Assembly: GCA_028287285.1 (NCBI GenBank)
Contig: JAQBPY010000065.1
Location: 1 to 64,000, forward strand
From: Gemmatimonadota bacterium
GTDB lineage: Bacteria > Gemmatimonadota > Gemmatimonadetes > Gemmatimonadales > Gemmatimonadaceae
DNA length: 64,000 bases
Direction of reading: 5' to 3'
Position 1 is the stretch's first letter. Every line of letters starts with the position of its first letter. This document shows positions 28,101 through 38,755 of this stretch, piece by piece. The position numbers were made by a program, and so were the translations under genes. A model generated the notes under the pieces. That model saw only the letters and a list, made by a program, of their open reading frames with translations. It searched no databases and was not told where the DNA came from.

Positions 28101-29094
28101 CTACTTGTTGACGAGATCGACGAGGAACTGTGTCACACGCGCGTCCCTCCGGCGTCCCAGACGCGATATGGCCCGCTTGCGGAGACTCAGATTCTGCTCG
28201 TCCTGCGCGATCTGCAGCAACGTGTCGGTTGCGGCCGCCTCGGTGCGGTTCGAATAGACGTCGAGCAGTTGTTCCTGAAGCTCCGTCTGGCCGTTGAATT
28301 CCTTGTAGAGCGCGAGGAGATCCTTTACCTCCAGCCCCGATGCATTCGCGCTGCGGCTGTCCGCGCTCGGAATGCCGTTGCTCATGTTGCGCAGCGCCGC
28401 CTTCCGAAGCTCGATGTCCGAGCTCTTGTCCCGCACCACGTCCAGCAGAAACTTCGTCACTTCAGGGCTTCGCTGGCTGGCAACGGCGCGCATGATGCCT
28501 TCGCGTAATTGCGGACTGACGGTCTTGGCGTAGAGACCCTCCAGGTACTGGAGATCGTCGGCGTCCCTTGCGGCCGGAACCCATGTAGCTCAGGGCACGC
28601 GAGCGGAGCTCGATGGGCAGCGTGGCACTTTCCGCAATCCGGCGCAGGCTGTTGCGTGCCACGGGATTCTGCTGGGACGCAATGGCGCGGAGTGCGGGGT
28701 CCTTCAGGTCGACGTCACTCGCGTTGAAGACGATCGAGTCAAGTGCGGCGGATGCCCGGTCGTCGTGTGTTTGCGCGAGCGATTGCACCGCCTGACGGCG
28801 AACCATGCCATTCGGATCTGTTCGTGCGACGCGAAGCATGATGTCCACGCGACTTGCGTCATGCGTACGGGCCAGGAAGCTCACCACTTGCCGGCGCAGC
28901 TCGACGGAGCATTCGTCCTTGCGCTCCAGCACTTTCTGAAGGACCGGCATGACCTGATCCGATTCCGTCTGCATGATGACGCCAAGGGCGGAGACACGTA
29001 TGTCGTCGGCGGGCGCCGGACAGGAGGCGGTCTGCGCTTCCGCGGCAACGCACGCGGACAGCAACAGCGCGCACAGAACGCGAACGGTATGCAT
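28101..29094 (-). pseudogene. secreted HEAT-repeat protein, frameshifted
   Basis: N-terminal part (MHTVRVLCALLLSACVAAEAQ...RSRALSYMGSGRK) and C-terminal part (DADDLQYLEGLYAKTVSPQLREGIMRAVASQRS...LGRRRDARVTQFLVDLVNK) are in different frames, joined across AAGGGACGCCGAC near 28560-28575. Confidence 0.8.
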
Positions 29095-29299
29095 GGGGAA
29101 TCTGGGGTAAGTGCGATACTCGAACATCGTGCGAAGCCACCGGTGTGCGGCTTCACAGCCCTAGACACGGGAACGCCACGGAGGGTTGGGTCGCGGCCAG
29201 CCGCGGCGACTTGTATTCTTGGGTGATGGGTCCATGCCGGTGGCAGGTGCATTCGCCGGCCACCGTCATTTCACCGAGCCGCACACCGGAGATCTCTCA

Positions 29300-29810: not shown

Positions 29811-29948
29811 GCTGCACCTCATGTGAAGGTCAGTTGCACCCCGGCCGCCCAGGAATCCAGCCAATGTGGCGCGGCGCGGGGCGGACTCGGCAATGGAAGA
29901 TGACAGGCGTCAACGCTTTCCGCCGTCCCATTGTCACAGGGGGCACGC

Positions 29949-30536
29949 ATGGAAACTGAAAGCCTTCCCCACCTGGAGCGAGCCGACTTGCTCCCAGACC
30001 AGCGCGCGCTCGTCGAGCGGGCGCGCCGGGGCGACCCATCAGCTCATCGTGCGCTGTATGAAGCCCATGTCGACCGGATCTTCCGCCTCACGTTCCGGCT
30101 CATTGGACGAGAGGACGCCGCTCGCGAGCTCACGCAGGACACGTTTGTCCGTGCGTTCGCCTCGATCAGCGGATTTCGTGGAGACGCCGCCTTCTCGACC
30201 TGGCTCCATACGATCGCGGTCTCGGTCACACTCAACGAAATAAAGCGGAGCAAGCGACAGCGGACGCGGGAAGCACCACTCGAGGAAGCGCTGATGGTCA
30301 CCAGATCGGCGCCTGAATCGGACCCCGTGATGCGGGAACGTCTCGCTGCTGCGGTCGCTGACCTCCCTGAAGGATGCCGGACGGTATTCATGATGCACGA
30401 CGCTGAAGGCTATACACACGAAGAAATCGCGACTGCGCTCGGCGTCACGCCGGGTACGTCGAAGGCGCAGCTGTTCCGTGCGCGAGGAAAGCTTCGCATC
30501 GCACTGGCGGATTTCGCCGAGGAATGGAAACCATGA
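29949..30536 (+). CDS. ECF-type RNA polymerase sigma factor
   Basis: about 195 aa; HRALYEAHVDRIFRLTFRLIGREDAARELTQDTFVRAFASI...TWLHTIAVSVTLNEIKR...GYTHEEIATALGVTPGTSKAQLFRARGKLR. Confidence 0.93.
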   Translation: METESLPHLERADLLPDQRALVERARRGDPSAHRALYEAHVDRIFRLTFRLIGREDAARELTQDTFVRAFASISGFRGDAAFSTWLHTIAVSVTLNEIKRSKRQRTREAPLEEALMVTRSAPESDPVMRERLAAAVADLPEGCRTVFMMHDAEGYTHEEIATALGVTPGTSKAQLFRARGKLRIALADFAEEWKP

Positions 30537-31240
30537 TGGATCATCCGGATTTTGGTGAGGACGCTGACGTCGAGCTTCCGGGGGACGAACAGTTCGACGC
30601 GTGGGTCAGCGCACGGGCGCGCTCACTCAACGTGCCGCCGGCGACGCCGCGCCTCGAGATGTGGGATGCAATCGCCTCCACGCAGAAAACGTCGGCAATT
30701 GCGCAGACGGGTGGAATTGCCGGAGTGCTTCCCTTCCGCATCTCACGGCGGTTCCTCCCGGTTGCCATCGCCGCTGCGCTGCTCCTCGGCGTGGGAATAG
30801 ATCGTGTGTTGCAACACGAGGCGATCGTTGTTCCACCGCCGGTCGCGTCACAGCCTGTTCCCCCTGCGGATCCATCACGCCTTTATCACATGGCCGCGGT
30901 TCAGACGCTCAGTCAGGCCGAAGCGCTCCTTACGGCGTTTCGTGCGAGCGACGTCGCCGTGCACGACCCCGCCGCTGCTCGCCAGCTCGGTGCGTGGGGC
31001 CGCGACGTCCTGAGCAGCACGCGCCTGCTCATCGATTCTCCAGCGGGTGCCGATCCACAGCTTCGCCCTTTGCTCAATGATCTCGAGCTCGTACTCGTGC
31101 AGGTCATCAGCTTGTCCGGCGCTCCGTTGGATTCGAGCGACCGCAAGCTGATCGACCAGACCCTCCACGATCGCGACCTCCTTCCACGCATACGCACCGC
31201 GGTTCCCGCCGGCATCGGCGGCACCGCTTCAGACGAATGA
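30533..31240 (+). CDS. single-pass membrane protein, candidate anti-sigma factor
   Basis: ATGA overlap with the ECF sigma stop; one TM (RFLPVAIAAALLLGVGIDRVL) with soluble segments on both sides. Confidence 0.65.
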   Translation: MMDHPDFGEDADVELPGDEQFDAWVSARARSLNVPPATPRLEMWDAIASTQKTSAIAQTGGIAGVLPFRISRRFLPVAIAAALLLGVGIDRVLQHEAIVVPPPVASQPVPPADPSRLYHMAAVQTLSQAEALLTAFRASDVAVHDPAAARQLGAWGRDVLSSTRLLIDSPAGADPQLRPLLNDLELVLVQVISLSGAPLDSSDRKLIDQTLHDRDLLPRIRTAVPAGIGGTASDE

Positions 31241-31251
31241 GGAGTACCTCA

Positions 31252-32619
31252 ATGTTCAGACGTCTTGTCATGGTGAGCGCAGTTGCGCTCCCTGCACTGC
31301 TCGTCAGCTCCACCGGCGTTTCCGCACGGAACGTTTCTTCCATCTCGACGCATGCGCCGGCGCCGTGGGCGGACAATGACCCGGCGGACTCGCTGTATCG
31401 CGTGGCCCGCGAAGCGCTCAACCGCAATCAACTGACCCGTGCGGCCGAGTTGTTTGCGGACATCGGAAGAAAGTATCCGAAGTCCGCATACGTGGCGGAC
31501 GCGCTGTACTACCGCGCCTTTGCGCTCTATCGCATGGGGGGCGAAGATGACCTGCGCCAGGCGCTCACGTCGCTCAATACCCAGCTGTCTCGGTATCCAA
31601 AGGCGAATACGGCGGGTGATGCGGAGGAGTTGCGGGTCCGCATTCGGGGCGCCCTGGCGAAACGCGGGGACGCCGAATCCGCGGCACTCGTATCTGAAGC
31701 CGCCCAGGACTCGACGCCGTGTGCGCGCGGCGCGGTGCGTGACGACGACAACGACGTGCGTGTCGCGGCCATGAATGCGCTCCTGCAGATGGACTCCGAG
31801 AGCGCGATGCCGATCATCAAGCAGGTATTGCAGAAGCGCGATGGGTGCACGGCGGTGTTGCGCAAGAAGGCAGTATTCCTCCTCTCGCAGAAGCGTTCCA
31901 GCGAGACCGAATCGGTGCTCAGCGACGTCATCCGCAACGATCCGAGCAGGCAGGTCCGCGAGGATGCCGTGTTCTGGATGGGCCAGATTCACTCGGACCG
32001 CGCTGCGGCCCTCCTCGAGGACATTGCGACCTCCTCGCCGGATATCGCATTGCGCGAAAAGGCCATTTTTTCCCTTAGCCAGCAGAATTCAGCTCGCAGC
32101 GCAGCCCTCATGCGCCGTGTTGCCGAGAGCGACGACACACCCCGCAGGGTGCGCGAGAATGCGATCTTCCAGCTCGGCCAGCACCGGTCCACGGAAAACG
32201 CGGAGTATCTGCGCTCACTCTTTGCCAAGCTCGGAAGGGGAAACGAGGACCTTCGCAAGAACGTGCTCTTTTCGCTCTCGCAGATGCGCGGCGTGGGCAA
32301 CGAGAAATGGCTCGTGAATGTCGCGCTGGACGGATCGCAGAGTGTCGAGGTTCGCAAGCAGGCACTGTGGACGGCAGGCCAGGCCGGCGCTTCGTCAACG
32401 GACCTGATTGGCATCTATGATCGGATAACGGATGCGCCCGTAAAGGAGCAGCTCATCTGGGTATTGTCCGAAGCTCGGGAGAAGGCGGCCTCCGACAAGC
32501 TCGTGGAGATTGCGACCAGGGACAAGGATCCCGAGATGCGCAAGAAAGCGCTCTTCTGGCTCGGGCAGAAGAATGATCCGCGCGTGAAGCAGATCATCCT
32601 GGACATCCTCAAGGATTGA
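31252..32619 (+). CDS. secreted HEAT-repeat protein (HEAT-1)
   Basis: ORF 31237..32619; GAGGAG 5' of ATG 31252; signal peptide MFRRLVMVSAVALPALLVSSTGVSA; repeats such as REDAVFWMGQIHSDRAAALLEDI and RKKALFWLGQKNDPRVKQIILDI. Confidence 0.85.
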   Translation: MFRRLVMVSAVALPALLVSSTGVSARNVSSISTHAPAPWADNDPADSLYRVAREALNRNQLTRAAELFADIGRKYPKSAYVADALYYRAFALYRMGGEDDLRQALTSLNTQLSRYPKANTAGDAEELRVRIRGALAKRGDAESAALVSEAAQDSTPCARGAVRDDDNDVRVAAMNALLQMDSESAMPIIKQVLQKRDGCTAVLRKKAVFLLSQKRSSETESVLSDVIRNDPSRQVREDAVFWMGQIHSDRAAALLEDIATSSPDIALREKAIFSLSQQNSARSAALMRRVAESDDTPRRVRENAIFQLGQHRSTENAEYLRSLFAKLGRGNEDLRKNVLFSLSQMRGVGNEKWLVNVALDGSQSVEVRKQALWTAGQAGASSTDLIGIYDRITDAPVKEQLIWVLSEAREKAASDKLVEIATRDKDPEMRKKALFWLGQKNDPRVKQIILDILKD

Positions 32620-33689
32620 TGCACATGCGTCTCGCATTCGGACTGCTCGTGGTGGCCGCGCCGCTCATGGCGCAGACGCCGCTGGCCGCGCGGATCGCGC
32701 AGGCACCCGATGGCGTCGTCCGCATGCAGTTCGATGCGCGCCCCGGCGTCTGCGGCGATGGACGCGACCGTATTTCCTTCCGGCATTCGACCTTCGGCGA
32801 CCACTTCGAATCATACGGACGTTGGAGCGACGACAGCTGTCTTGCCGGGCCGTTACGCGTCACGCTCTCCGTCGCGGGCAACCGCGTGACACGTGTGCAG
32901 ACGCAGGTTGGTGGCAGATGGAACACCACCGGCGACCGCGTCACGGATCTTGGCATTGTCTCGCCGCGCGAGGCGTCGGCATACTTTTTTTCCCTCGTGG
33001 CGCGCTCGGATGCACTTCGCGACAGGAATTACACGCTTCTCCCCGCGGTGCTTGCCGACGACGTCGTCGTCATTTCACCACTGCTCGGCATTGCGCGTGA
33101 CGACTCGAGGACGATGGATACGCGCCGTCAAGCGGTGCACTTCCTCGGGATGTTCGGTGACGCGAGTGTGATCCCCGCGCTCGTGTCCTTTGCCAACGAA
33201 GATGACCGCCGCGACGCGGCAGGCCTCGCAGGCTCGGCCATTGCTGCGCTTTCGCAACTCGAGTCCGGAGCAGGCATTCCCGCACTGATCGAGCTTGCGC
33301 GCAAGGGGCCCCAGGGCACACGAAAGAATGCGGTATTCTGGTTGGGTCAGTGCGGAGATCCGCGCGCGCTCCGAACGCTACGCACAATCATCTCGGACGG
33401 CGACGAAAACATCGAGGTCCGAAAAAACGCCATTTTTTCTCTTGGCCAGAGCGAAGAAACGCCAACGCGCGACCTTGCGTTGCTCTATGGTGACCTCGGC
33501 GACAGGGCACTCAAGGAGCAGGCGATCTTTGCGCTCTCACAACGCAATGATAACGCGGCGACGGATGCACTCATCCGAATCGCTCGTGACGACCGCGACA
33601 AGTCCATGCGCGGAAAAGCAATCTTCTGGCTCGGACAGAAGCACGATCCTCGAGCGACAAAGCTCATCAGTGACCTCATCCTGAAATGA
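32616..33689 (+). CDS. secreted HEAT-repeat protein (HEAT-2)
   Basis: 357 aa; signal peptide MRLAFGLLVVAAPLMAQ; RKNAVFWLGQCGDPRALRTL, RGKAIFWLGQKHDPRATKLISDLILK; start/stop overlap with HEAT-1 (TTGATG). Confidence 0.85.
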   Translation: MMHMRLAFGLLVVAAPLMAQTPLAARIAQAPDGVVRMQFDARPGVCGDGRDRISFRHSTFGDHFESYGRWSDDSCLAGPLRVTLSVAGNRVTRVQTQVGGRWNTTGDRVTDLGIVSPREASAYFFSLVARSDALRDRNYTLLPAVLADDVVVISPLLGIARDDSRTMDTRRQAVHFLGMFGDASVIPALVSFANEDDRRDAAGLAGSAIAALSQLESGAGIPALIELARKGPQGTRKNAVFWLGQCGDPRALRTLRTIISDGDENIEVRKNAIFSLGQSEETPTRDLALLYGDLGDRALKEQAIFALSQRNDNAATDALIRIARDDRDKSMRGKAIFWLGQKHDPRATKLISDLILK

Positions 33690-34456
33690 TCATGCGCGCA
33701 TCCTGCCTCATGGTACTCGCAGCCGTCGCCCTGCCGCTCGGCGCGCAATCGCTCGCCGGCCGCGTTGCCGCCGAACGCAATGGGACCGTCATGTTCCAGT
33801 TTGCCGCTCGCGCCGGTGTTTGTGGTGACGGCTACAGCTTCATCCGTCATGGACGAACATTCTTCGGCTCGTACTCCGACGCAAATCGTTACGGTGATTG
33901 CACGACAGGCCCCGTGCTCGTTCGCCTCACGCTCAGCGACGGCGTCGTCGAACGGGTCCAGACCTGGGTCGGCCCTGTTCGGGCTCATGACGCGAAGTCC
34001 ATTGGGGTGGTGCCGGCCAGGGAAGCCGCCGACTATCTGTTGAGCATTGCCATGCAGGTGAACGGCCGGACAGGCAGCAACGCACTCCTGCCCGCCATCC
34101 TTGCCGACAGCGCTGTTGTCTGGCCGCAGTTGCTGCGCATCGCGCGCGACTCGGAGACACGCTCACGCTCGCTGCGCATCGACGCCATGCATTGGCTCTC
34201 TCGATTTGCCGCCGGAGCGACGACGGGCCGGCCGAACACTCCGTGGATCGACGACGGCGACGACGAGTACGACAAGATAAAGGAGAATGCCGTTTTCGTG
34301 CTGTCGCAGATGCGGGATGACACCAGAATTCCGGCGCTCATCGACGTGGCACGCAAGAACGCCGACGCGCATGTCCGCGGCAGTGCGCTGTTCTGGCTTG
34401 GCCAGACAGGTGACTCGCGCGCCATCGACCTGTTCGAGTCGATTCTTCGCGGCTAG
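33686..34456 (+). CDS. secreted HEAT-repeat protein (HEAT-3)
   Basis: 256 aa; signal peptide MRASCLMVLAAVALPLGAQ; RGSALFWLGQTGDSRAIDLFESILRG; ATGA overlap with HEAT-2. Confidence 0.83.
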   Translation: MIMRASCLMVLAAVALPLGAQSLAGRVAAERNGTVMFQFAARAGVCGDGYSFIRHGRTFFGSYSDANRYGDCTTGPVLVRLTLSDGVVERVQTWVGPVRAHDAKSIGVVPAREAADYLLSIAMQVNGRTGSNALLPAILADSAVVWPQLLRIARDSETRSRSLRIDAMHWLSRFAAGATTGRPNTPWIDDGDDEYDKIKENAVFVLSQMRDDTRIPALIDVARKNADAHVRGSALFWLGQTGDSRAIDLFESILRG

Positions 34457-34485: not shown

Positions 34486-34514
34486 GACCCGCTCTCCATG
34501 CCGACGAGCGGGTC
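34486..34514. terminator. Hairpin GACCCGCTC...GAGCGGGTC downstream of the HEAT operon
   Basis: 9-bp perfect stem, 11-nt loop, 30 bp after the HEAT-3 stop; no long T tract. Confidence 0.45.
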
Positions 34515-34938: not shown

Positions 34939-37900
34939 CTACGGTTGCTGCACCTGCACATTCTGTCCGCTCCCCGGCTTCACGACGGGCTTGGGTTTGT
35001 CCGAGAACGTAACAGGATTTCCAAACTGCCACTGGCTGTGCTCGCGACTTTCCTTCGGCGTTGCCACCATGTTCTTGAGCATCGGAAACAGCTCCTTCTG
35101 CGACGGAGTCACCAGTGAATCGGCGATCTCCGGCTGCTCCCAGAAAATCTTCCAGTACGCCTTGCTCGCCGTCTGAACACTGTCCAGCTCGGCCTTGCCT
35201 GCACCACCACGCCCCTGCGCGAGGAACTGGCCGAGCGGCGCGTAGACGCCGCGCACCCGCGCCGAGAACACCGAGTCTGCCCTGCGCAGGTCCCTGATCT
35301 GCCCTGCGCTCAGAAAGAGCGAGTCACTCTCGAGAATGAGCGCCTTGAATATGCTGGACGTATTGGACAGGTAAAATGCCGCGAGCGAATCGGCCGATCG
35401 GCGCTGCCAGCCAGAATCAACCCGAATGGGCTCCACCGCGCGACGCAGCTGCTGCAAGTCGTAATTCGTGGAAAGCTGGAAGGAGAAATCCATGACCAGC
35501 CGGAACGGGTTCAACGCGAGGTTGCGATTGGGTCGCGTGTCCGCAAAGCGGGGGTTCACGTCGTACTTGAACCGGTTGGCGCTTGCGTCAAAACCACGCG
35601 GTACGAGCAGCACCGGATCGACGTACGAGGGCGAGCCCCATCCGTGGAGGCTTTCACTTCCGTGAACGAGCTGATCGACGCCAGCGAGCACGTTCTGGAA
35701 GTAGATGTTGGGAGACACACGTCCATTCCACCGCGACGGCATGGGCGGGCGCCACTGGATGTTGAACGACTGCGTCCACGGTCCGCGACATCCATTGCGA
35801 TCCACGACCTTACCCAGATATTGGTTGAGGCAGCCCTTTGCCGTTGATGCGCCATTCGCAAGCAACGCACGAATCTGCGCGGCGACATTGACGTCGGTCT
35901 CATGAGCAGGGTCCGGCACGAACGCACGGTCCCCGCCACGGCCATCGCCGTTGACGTCGCCCTGGACTGTAGGGGTGAACGGCAACCCCGATTGGGCGCG
36001 GGCAAACATGGTAACGGCACCCGTGCTGGGCGTATAGAAGCCGCTTGTGAAAACGACCGCATGACGCGCGTCGTTCTGTCCAACAGACCACTCCTTGACG
36101 CGCGGATCACCGAAGCTTCCACCATCAAAGCCGCGGAACTCACGCTTGGTTGCCTGCAACGTGTAGTTCAGCGAGCCAAAGAACGAGGCATTCGCGCTGA
36201 ACTTGAACACGTCCGGCGCCAGGCCGAGATTCAGCTGCCCGCCGTATCCGCGCAGGTCGCTCGACCGCACTGCCACGCGCCCGTATTGATCGCTGCGCCG
36301 CGACTCTGACGCCGATACCGCTCCGGTTGCCGGATCAATTGATGCGGCGGACACGTACACGGGGCGATTTCCCTCCGACGCAAGCGACAACCGCTGCAGC
36401 GCGCTGAAGTTCGCGTCCACGATGCCCGGCTGCGACACGTCGTACGAGCCAAGAACACCGGCGCGAAGCAACCACGTTTTCCAGCTCGTATTCCAGTCGA
36501 GCGACGCACGCCAGCTGTGCGGCACGTCATAGTGCTTGTCGATCAACACCACCGAGGGCGCACTTTCCGCCAGCACTCCGCTGCCGTTGACGCACTGCGT
36601 TGGAATCGACGCAGGGTCATTCGCGAATCTCGTCCAGTCCGCGCTCGGCACCGCGGCACCAACGCACGAGAGCACGGATGTTCCGCCCGACAGCCCCGTG
36701 CCCGCCGAGGCATCGGCAAGAATATTTGGCCGCAAGAGGTCACGGAAATCGCCAATGCCGCCGCGAATGACACCGCTGGTGGTCCGATAGTAGCGACCGA
36801 CCGGCGTCTGACTCGAGCCGCTCCCATTTTCCTTGTCACGATTGTACGTGTAGGAAAACCCGATGCGCGGGCTCACGTGAATCTGCATCGGAGCCGCACC
36901 TGTCTGCACGCCGAGCGCTTGCTCGAGAGGACCATTGGCGGCCGGTGCGCTCATGAATCCGTCAGCCTCGACCCGCGCACCATACAGCATGCTGAAGAAC
37001 CGTGTCGGGCTCCACTGATGTGCGAGCGCGGCTGCTGAATTCCAGACGCTGCCTTCGCGAGCCGGTTGTGCAAGCGTGCGCGTAAAGCTTGCGGGATGAC
37101 CTGCCGCGAGATCGGCAATGGAGTTGTAGGTGAAGCTGCCAAGGCGGTTCTGCACACCGGTAGAGCTGGTGCCGTCCGCGCGCGCCCACAGTTGCGTCTT
37201 GAACCGGTGCCTGCGCCCACCCGCCATCCACGTCGTTTCGTTCGAGCCTTCCGCGGTCCACTTCGTGTCGTCCGTGGACAGATACGGCGCGCCGCCCAGC
37301 GTGATGCCGGTGATGTCGCTGCTGGCGTCGAGCGCGGACGAACGCACCAGTACATTCACACCGGGCAGCTCACGATACGGCGACACGTTCGTGCGGACCG
37401 CACTCGCGGCAAATCGCGATTCCGTGAGGATGCGCCGGCCCTCTCCAACGTAGTCGCCAAAGGTCAGCTGCCCACCAATGGTCTGCTCCTTCCGCTCGCC
37501 CGAGGCAGAGGGCGCAGCGAGTGGACCAAAGTTCAACGCTCCGTCGCGCGTGTAGCCCGCGTACGCCGTGAGTGCACGGGTGCGGAGCGTGTCGCGCGTA
37601 TCATCGAAGCGGGACAGGAAGCTCACCGCATCATGCACCCGGCTCGATGGCACGGACCGGCTGCCAACGGTAAGGCCAAGCGGGTTCGCAACCGCCACGA
37701 GGCGCGCAACCGAATCCGGTGATACGCCCGCGCGAAGGAGCGCGTCGGCATCGGCATCGAGCAGCGTGGCCGGGTCACTCGTGCTGCGACCGGCGTCGAC
37801 CGCAACGTTATATGTCGCCGCCTTCCGGATCATCTCGCCATTTGCCCCAAGGCTGCCGCGAACGCCACCGCTGCGCGCGCCAAGTGAGCGGCCGGTATTA

Positions 37901-38670
37901 TCGGTGAACTGCAATGCCTGCGGATCGAGCGTGAGAAATCCGCTGCGCCGCTGATAGGATCGGTCGCCGGGTCCGAGGCGGACGTCGATGTTCGCTCCGG
38001 CAAAACCGCCGCGCGTTGGATCGAACGTCGCGCCCGTCACGCGTGTCTGCGCGTTCGCCGCACGCGGAATCGCACCTGCGGAAAGCCCCATTCCATTGAG
38101 CGTGGTGAGGTTGGACTCCGCACCCGAGCCAAGGATGGACGGGCCAAACCCTGTCATCGTGACATTCGACATCAGACCTGCGATTGCATTCAGATCACCG
38201 GCTGCACTGGGCGGAATGGCGCCGTTCACTCCATCCTGCCACTTCTCCGATGATCCCGGCTCGAGATTCGTGGGACTGATGTTGTTTGTCGCGCGCACCG
38301 CCTTGTCAGCCACCACTTTCATCGCATCGAGCATCGTGACATCGCGCGAGAGGCTGAAGTCGGCCACGAACTCGCGCTCCGTGGTCTCGCGTGTCACCCG
38401 CCGGCGCACCGGCTTGAAGCCCTGCGCGGTAACGTAGATGAGGTAGTCGCCGGTGCCTTGCTCGAAGCGCATCTGATACCGGCCGCTGGAGTCGCTGGCG
38501 GTCTGTTGCGTGAGCCGGTCCGGCCCACGAGTGATCATGACGGTCGCCACGACTCCTCGGCTCGAATCATCGACGATGCGACCGCGAATGACGTCCGGTG
38601 CCTGCGCGGCGAGTGGGAAAACGCTGAAGGCCAACGTGGCGACGATGGCGAGTGAACGGTATTGGCTCAT
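34939..38670 (-). CDS. TonB-dependent receptor with carboxypeptidase-regulatory-like N-domain and C-terminal helical tail
   Basis: ORF 1262 aa, start trimmed to MSQYRSLAIVATLAFSVFPLAAQ; RGRIVDDSSRGVVATVMI...YQMRFEQGTGDYLIYVTAQGFKPVRRRV; plug/barrel features. Confidence 0.85.
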   Translation of the reverse strand: MSQYRSLAIVATLAFSVFPLAAQAPDVIRGRIVDDSSRGVVATVMITRGPDRLTQQTASDSSGRYQMRFEQGTGDYLIYVTAQGFKPVRRRVTRETTEREFVADFSLSRDVTMLDAMKVVADKAVRATNNISPTNLEPGSSEKWQDGVNGAIPPSAAGDLNAIAGLMSNVTMTGFGPSILGSGAESNLTTLNGMGLSAGAIPRAANAQTRVTGATFDPTRGGFAGANIDVRLGPGDRSYQRRSGFLTLDPQALQFTDNTGRSLGARSGGVRGSLGANGEMIRKAATYNVAVDAGRSTSDPATLLDADADALLRAGVSPDSVARLVAVANPLGLTVGSRSVPSSRVHDAVSFLSRFDDTRDTLRTRALTAYAGYTRDGALNFGPLAAPSASGERKEQTIGGQLTFGDYVGEGRRILTESRFAASAVRTNVSPYRELPGVNVLVRSSALDASSDITGITLGGAPYLSTDDTKWTAEGSNETTWMAGGRRHRFKTQLWARADGTSSTGVQNRLGSFTYNSIADLAAGHPASFTRTLAQPAREGSVWNSAAALAHQWSPTRFFSMLYGARVEADGFMSAPAANGPLEQALGVQTGAAPMQIHVSPRIGFSYTYNRDKENGSGSSQTPVGRYYRTTSGVIRGGIGDFRDLLRPNILADASAGTGLSGGTSVLSCVGAAVPSADWTRFANDPASIPTQCVNGSGVLAESAPSVVLIDKHYDVPHSWRASLDWNTSWKTWLLRAGVLGSYDVSQPGIVDANFSALQRLSLASEGNRPVYVSAASIDPATGAVSASESRRSDQYGRVAVRSSDLRGYGGQLNLGLAPDVFKFSANASFFGSLNYTLQATKREFRGFDGGSFGDPRVKEWSVGQNDARHAVVFTSGFYTPSTGAVTMFARAQSGLPFTPTVQGDVNGDGRGGDRAFVPDPAHETDVNVAAQIRALLANGASTAKGCLNQYLGKVVDRNGCRGPWTQSFNIQWRPPMPSRWNGRVSPNIYFQNVLAGVDQLVHGSESLHGWGSPSYVDPVLLVPRGFDASANRFKYDVNPRFADTRPNRNLALNPFRLVMDFSFQLSTNYDLQQLRRAVEPIRVDSGWQRRSADSLAAFYLSNTSSIFKALILESDSLFLSAGQIRDLRRADSVFSARVRGVYAPLGQFLAQGRGGAGKAELDSVQTASKAYWKIFWEQPEIADSLVTPSQKELFPMLKNMVATPKESREHSQWQFGNPVTFSDKPKPVVKPGSGQNVQVQQP

Positions 38671-38755
38671 GAGATGGGATGAAGCGGGTACGGGGTCAGG
38701 GAACAGCGATTGGACACCGTATGCCATCGGAGCGTTGTCCTTCGGGGTCTTTCAT

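Follow-up and report, generated by a model that had tools for sequence, protein, structure and literature searches.

Why should an extracytoplasmic function (ECF) sigma factor be encoded in one operon with exported HEAT-repeat proteins, and do these proteins take part in controlling it or are they only its products? The question is raised by a locus in a draft Gemmatimonadaceae genome (GCA_028287285.1, contig JAQBPY010000065.1), of which positions 1 to 64,000, hereafter the window, were analysed. ECF systems are common, but for phyla that have received little study most of their sensing components are, to our knowledge, not known. The locus is of interest as a case of an exported HEAT solenoid that is linked with a sigma switch throughout a bacterial class.

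The locus and its gene products

An earlier sequence-only reading of this DNA had described five tightly packed genes with four overlapping junctions, the first encoding an ECF sigma factor. Both points were confirmed (Table 1): the coordinates are as claimed and the genes overlap at each junction, with ATGA at 30533, ATGA at 31237, TGATG at 32617 and ATGA at 33686. Pfam recognized sigma regions 2 and 4 in the first product, which scored 77.9 bits against TIGR02937 (cut-off 42.9) and contains the sigma2 and sigma4 domains only, as is characteristic of ECF (group IV) sigma factors.

Table 1. Positions of the features discussed in the text, numbered from the first nucleotide of the window.
Feature	Position	Strand	Remarks
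Divergent secreted HEAT gene, HEAT1-related	28101..29094	-	Broken (frameshift, about 28566); relative intact in L014/L080
Promoter of the same type as that of the operon, CAACCCTCCGTGGCGTTCCCGTGTC	29164..29188	-	Upstream of the divergent HEAT gene; score 17.5
Operon promoter, -35 TCAACGCTT, -10 TGTCACA	29910..29941	+	Conserved dyad; 16 nt between CAACG and TGTC
ECF sigma factor, 195 aa, sigma2 + sigma4	29949..30536	+	Pfam PF04542/PF08281 and NCBIfam TIGR02937 above cut-off
Single-TM anti-sigma-like protein	30524..31240	+	Start may be ATG 30533 (ATGA overlap)
HEAT1, 460 aa: signal peptide, BamD/YbgF-like TPR, HEAT solenoid	31237..32619	+	
HEAT2: signal peptide, N-terminal beta domain, HEAT solenoid	32616/32619..33689	+	
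HEAT3: short HEAT2 paralogue	33686..34456	+	Most relatives have one such gene only
Hairpin with 9-bp stem, 3' of the operon	34486..34514	+	Before convergent genes; no T-run
Large outer-membrane protein, carboxypeptidase-regulatory-like N-domain	34939..38670	-	PF13620; probable start ATG 38670; putative regulon member
Promoter of the same type, CAACGCTCCGATGGCATACGGTGTC	38713..38737	-	Upstream of the outer-membrane protein gene; score 17.4

The further claim of three exported HEAT paralogues had to be refined. HEAT_2/HEAT_PBS matches above the Pfam cut-offs were obtained for all three proteins, but these fall into two architectures. The N-terminus of HEAT1 is a BamD/YbgF-like TPR region that lies ahead of the HEAT repeats (Pfam and NCBIfam); this region alone matches, and the protein stays below the full-length equivalog cut-offs of TIGR02795 (46.9 vs. 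90.1) and TIGR03302 (37.3 vs. 81.4). HEAT2 and HEAT3 share a beta-rich N-terminal domain with two invariant cysteines, C44 and C73 in the numbering of alignment A2. A signal-like core was found in 84/85 HEAT1 proteins. HEAT solenoids usually act as protein-binding scaffolds. Those of the module are like the HEAT/PBS-lyase-like solenoids (relatives of alphaRep) in their HEAT_2/HEAT_PBS matches and in a PDB fold search with HEAT2, in which the HEAT half alone matched, to solved alphaRep binders; unlike them, the module proteins are exported, are fused to a TPR region or to a two-cysteine beta domain, and are tied to an ECF operon.

The operon had also been said to end in a 9-bp hairpin. The hairpin is present, but since it lacks a T-run and its folding is only slightly above that of shuffled sequence (z -1.69), it provides weak evidence for a terminator and was not accepted as one. 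An Rfam search returned no match.

Conservation of the gene set

The core unit, consisting of the sigma factor, the TM protein, a long TPR and HEAT protein and a short beta-domain and HEAT protein, recurs across one Gemmatimonadota class, with two or three exported HEAT proteins per operon, and the genome of the window holds two further copies of it (contigs C211 and C346). HEAT1 relatives (E <= 1e-20) were found in 202 of the 395 sampled Gemmatimonadota genomes, all within one class, and TM-protein relatives in 103 of the 179 genomes of the family (Gemmatimonadaceae). The 85 loci that we sampled, nearly all of them fetched around HEAT1 matches, contain the sigma gene upstream in 81 cases; the TM protein was seen in 82, as was a downstream stretch with one or more further HEAT genes. 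Of the four loci without a sigma gene, three stop at contig edges; the fourth, L146 in the complete genome G166, lacks it, and here the TM protein and the HEAT genes are kept while the upstream sigma gene is missing. Reverse sampling of 30 loci picked by the TM protein gave 29 with sigma and 28 with HEAT1, the exceptions being located at contig ends. Joint conservation of the gene set, on which the sequence-only reading depended, is therefore seen with either way of picking loci, and a gene order repeated in over 80 loci of the class goes far beyond what chance would give. One pattern-limited search beyond the phylum found matches in Gemmatimonadota only, and a plasmid collection gave none.

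Neighbouring genes have a general tendency to persist, and it could be argued on that basis, and nothing more, that these genes are together by descent with no functional link. Beyond the unit, however, no other gene is conserved around the sampled loci; order, promoter and translational coupling are retained between families that share about 40-50% identity, and several paralogous copies within one genome retain the same gene set. Passive neighbourhood is thus an explanation to which we give almost no credence.

A tree that included other ECFs of the same genome placed 78 of the 81 module sigmas in a single clade (97/82) and the remaining three, which belong to one family, with sister ECFs. 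In these three modules (L083, L086 and L112, from a single family within the class) the TM/HEAT unit goes with a sister-clade sigma, which suggests a sigma exchange.

Promoter and predicted autoregulation

The best dyad in the 78 usable module upstream regions was CAACC-N16-TGTC, exact in 51 of them, with shuffled sequences giving at most 7 for any dyad. Upon site scoring, the 16-nt spacing was present in 77 of the 78 regions, in most cases no more than a few tens of nucleotides from the start, so that an AAC-type -35 and a GTC-type -10 element, as in ECF promoters, precede nearly every sigma gene. Such elements and positive autoregulation are a general rule for ECFs (PMC8103513), which makes autoregulation the natural reading; because the ECF-type promoter stands before sigma at the exact spacing, the operon is predicted to be self-activating. 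In the window the promoter elements (TCAACGCTT...TGTCACA, 29910-29938) end 10-13 nt upstream of the sigma ATG. Here (29932-29949), and in most modules, the -10 element is very near the sigma start codon, so that a leaderless or almost leaderless transcript is probable. In complete genomes, strict matches to the promoter point mostly to the module alone.

The TM protein as a putative anti-sigma factor

The TM protein consists of a short cytoplasmic part, a TM segment at about residues 79-98 and a periplasmic helical bundle at about residues 117-226. AlphaFold modelled the bundle confidently, and two cytoplasmic helices (residues 22-35 and 43-61) at low confidence. Profile searches of Pfam and NCBIfam gave no family match for the protein, and a PDB fold search revealed no significant counterpart to the periplasmic bundle. 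Of the 82 module TM proteins, 78 have a TM-like segment, and Lys and Arg residues are richer before the TM than after it in 71, with the reverse in 3, consistent with an N-in topology. A single TM, an N-terminus inside and a gene directly after that of the sigma factor are the general hallmarks of a membrane-bound anti-sigma factor, and the sigma and TM genes share an ATGA overlap, indicative of translational coupling, in 71 modules. The class I zinc motif HxxxCxxC was found in only 3 of the 82 proteins and is missing in the other 79. Given the lack of a family match and the scarcity of the zinc motif, the anti-sigma role rests on position, topology and co-variation; taken together, these indicate that the TM protein is probably the cognate anti-sigma of the operon's ECF sigma.

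Domain-split co-variation

Co-variation was assessed from pairwise distances after splitting the TM protein into its cytoplasmic and periplasmic parts. The cytoplasmic part correlated with sigma at r 0.70 (partial 0.56 given HEAT1) and with HEAT1 at 0.52 (partial 0.16), while the periplasmic part showed the opposite preference, with r 0.71 for HEAT1 (partial 0.59) and 0.51 for sigma (partial 0.13). Bootstrap intervals for the difference between sigma and HEAT1 exclude zero for each half of the TM protein, and the result holds when periplasmic columns are subsampled to match the cytoplasmic part in length. Simple linkage offers no easy explanation, since the correlation of the periplasmic part with the HEAT2 solenoid, encoded two genes away, exceeds that with the nearby sigma4 (0.60 vs. 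0.43). The HEAT1-HEAT2 value of 0.76 could be inflated by gene conversion between HEAT genes, and co-variation in general can also stem from linkage or from such conversion. Because the cytoplasmic part tracks sigma and the periplasmic part tracks the HEAT proteins, the best reading is that sigma would be bound inside the membrane and the HEAT proteins outside it, a layout like that of RpoE/RseA/RseB. The envelope-signalling role put forward by the sequence-only reading draws support from this result and from the conservation of the gene set.

These data also bear on the proposal that the TM protein is no anti-sigma at all and serves as an inner-membrane anchor for a co-transcribed HEAT complex, with sigma being controlled elsewhere. 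Such a role would agree with the absence of both a recognized anti-sigma domain and the class I zinc motif; it does not agree with a cytoplasmic part that, in the partial correlations, co-varies with sigma rather than with HEAT1, with the translational coupling of the two genes, or with the presence of zinc-type anti-sigmas in the same position beside sister ECFs of the same genome. We therefore consider it improbable.

Detached HEAT genes and the wider regulon

HEAT genes lying apart from the operon have a promoter copy to themselves (score 27.6 in L089, 14.9 in L080 and, in the window, 17.5 for that at 29188 on the minus strand), and for this reason look like direct targets of the sigma factor. 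Since its relatives in L014 and L080 are intact, the broken divergent HEAT gene of the window could reflect either recent pseudogenization or an error in the assembly. The site upstream of the outer-membrane protein gene is 42 nt before the likely start. L077 (G369) has a DUF5916-type barrel gene that runs divergently from the sigma gene and bears a promoter copy of its own (score 18.3).

In pattern-based regulon scans, this promoter class was seen to stand before envelope genes in many genomes. The 56 genes that were read behind 60 sites include 10 DUF5916/CBM9 barrels, as many PadR regulators, about 5 MacB/FtsX permeases and 3 DUF4097 proteins. The CAACC-N16-TGTC class before these genes is spread over Gemmatimonadaceae (L261-L320 and L187-L230), including genomes without the module. 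In module-bearing genomes a site precedes 13 of 30 CBM9 genes where 0.4 would be expected, and the opposite strand gave 2/30 and the gene interior 0/30; in module-free genomes 6 of 30 DUF5916/CBM9 genes have one (Fisher p 0.09 for the comparison with 13/30). The number of sites per genome is 2.74 with the module and 0.75 without it. The motif also occurs at three other (sister) ECFs of the window's genome (L157, L182 and L183). These sites and those in module-free genomes weakened the candidate assignment of the wider regulon to the module sigma specifically, and for the same reason this regulon is probably common to several ECFs; the operon and the detached HEAT genes are what can be assigned to the module sigma with some confidence.

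Are the HEAT proteins, then, output only? An ordinary sigma/anti-sigma pair, in which the TM protein does its own sensing through its periplasmic domain and the HEAT proteins are scaffolds or chaperones made on demand (e.g., for outer-membrane barrels), would account for HEAT genes having a sigma-type promoter even outside the operon, for the BamD/YbgF-like TPR region of HEAT1 and for the DUF5916 barrel genes preceded by the same promoter class. What it leaves unaccounted for is that the periplasmic domain co-varies with the HEAT proteins independently of sigma, and that ordinary regulon members leave the operon, whereas the HEAT genes almost never do. We regard this explanation as unlikely, though it deserves to be taken seriously.

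Proposed mechanism

We favour, with a probability of roughly 0.6, a model in which the operon is a self-contained autoregulated ECF signalling unit with a TM anti-sigma and with HEAT proteins as RseB-like co-regulators or sensors. The short cytoplasmic part of the TM protein would hold sigma, and the exported HEAT proteins would dock on its periplasmic helical bundle, in a manner comparable to that of RseB on RseA. An encounter of the HEAT proteins with their envelope ligand, or their titration, would lead to inactivation of the anti-sigma, probably by regulated proteolysis. The freed sigma would then activate the operon that encodes it, together with HEAT genes located elsewhere and, probably, some genes of the envelope. 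The model takes gene order, promoter, export and TM features and co-variation from the sequences, and from these we infer binding, the direction of signalling, proteolysis and the identity of the signal; neither a protease nor a ligand is encoded among the genes of the unit. The three modules of one family that have a sister-clade sigma, and the unit of G166 without any sigma, are points against the model.

A more specific and tentative proposal, for which the odds are somewhat against, is that a non-zinc anti-sigma has a new helical domain in the periplasm to which HEAT1 and HEAT2 bind jointly, and that these two proteins report on the state of outer-membrane proteins. If true, the HEAT proteins would represent a new class of periplasmic ECF co-regulator, and the class of Gemmatimonadota concerned would possess a sigma-E-like envelope response of separate origin. 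As the unit is small and predicted to be self-activating, with a sharply defined promoter, the contacts among sigma, anti-sigma and HEAT proteins, as well as the regulon, are directly testable.

Comparison with known systems

In the CnrH-CnrY-CnrX system of Cupriavidus metallidurans, which senses metals, a short cytoplasmic anti-sigma segment of about two helices is combined with a separate periplasmic sensor. The module resembles it, by layout only, in that the cytoplasmic segment of its TM protein is likewise short, with two helices predicted, and in that its periplasmic partner is a separate protein; unlike Cnr, it has no metal-binding sensor, and the partner is a HEAT solenoid. CnrY is the reference for class II anti-sigmas (PMC7406223). 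Class I (ASDI) anti-sigmas are common in Gemmatimonadetes, with about 79% of ECFs (PMC7406223), and the module is like these in that the TM gene directly follows that of the ECF sigma and its product is membrane-bound; it differs in the rarity of HxxxCxxC, a motif that marks part of that class, and may differ in its cytoplasmic part, which is modelled at low confidence with two helices only, the class I domain being multi-helical and over 50 aa in length.

The literature that we searched, with the 2021 ECF re-classification lying outside the search, describes no ECF system with HEAT partners, nor did it contain a published account of this exact context, in line with the earlier suggestion that the system is undescribed. 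The closest parallel in plan is RpoE-RseA-RseB, in which one operon encodes an ECF sigma, a single-TM anti-sigma bound by both RpoE and RseB, and a periplasmic protein, with positive autoregulation and an envelope-biased regulon (PMC8103513). The module shares with it the operon plan, the predicted positive autoregulation, an envelope-biased promoter class and a putative periplasmic binding partner of the anti-sigma. It differs in that its periplasmic partners are HEAT proteins, which have no RseB-type Pfam match, and that its TM protein is without a recognisable RseA-type domain. Sigma release in the RpoE system is by DegS/RseP proteolysis; for the module, regulated proteolysis is a proposal. 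The operon thus looks like an envelope sensor on the plan of E. coli sigma-E, apparently undescribed and put together from unrelated periplasmic parts.
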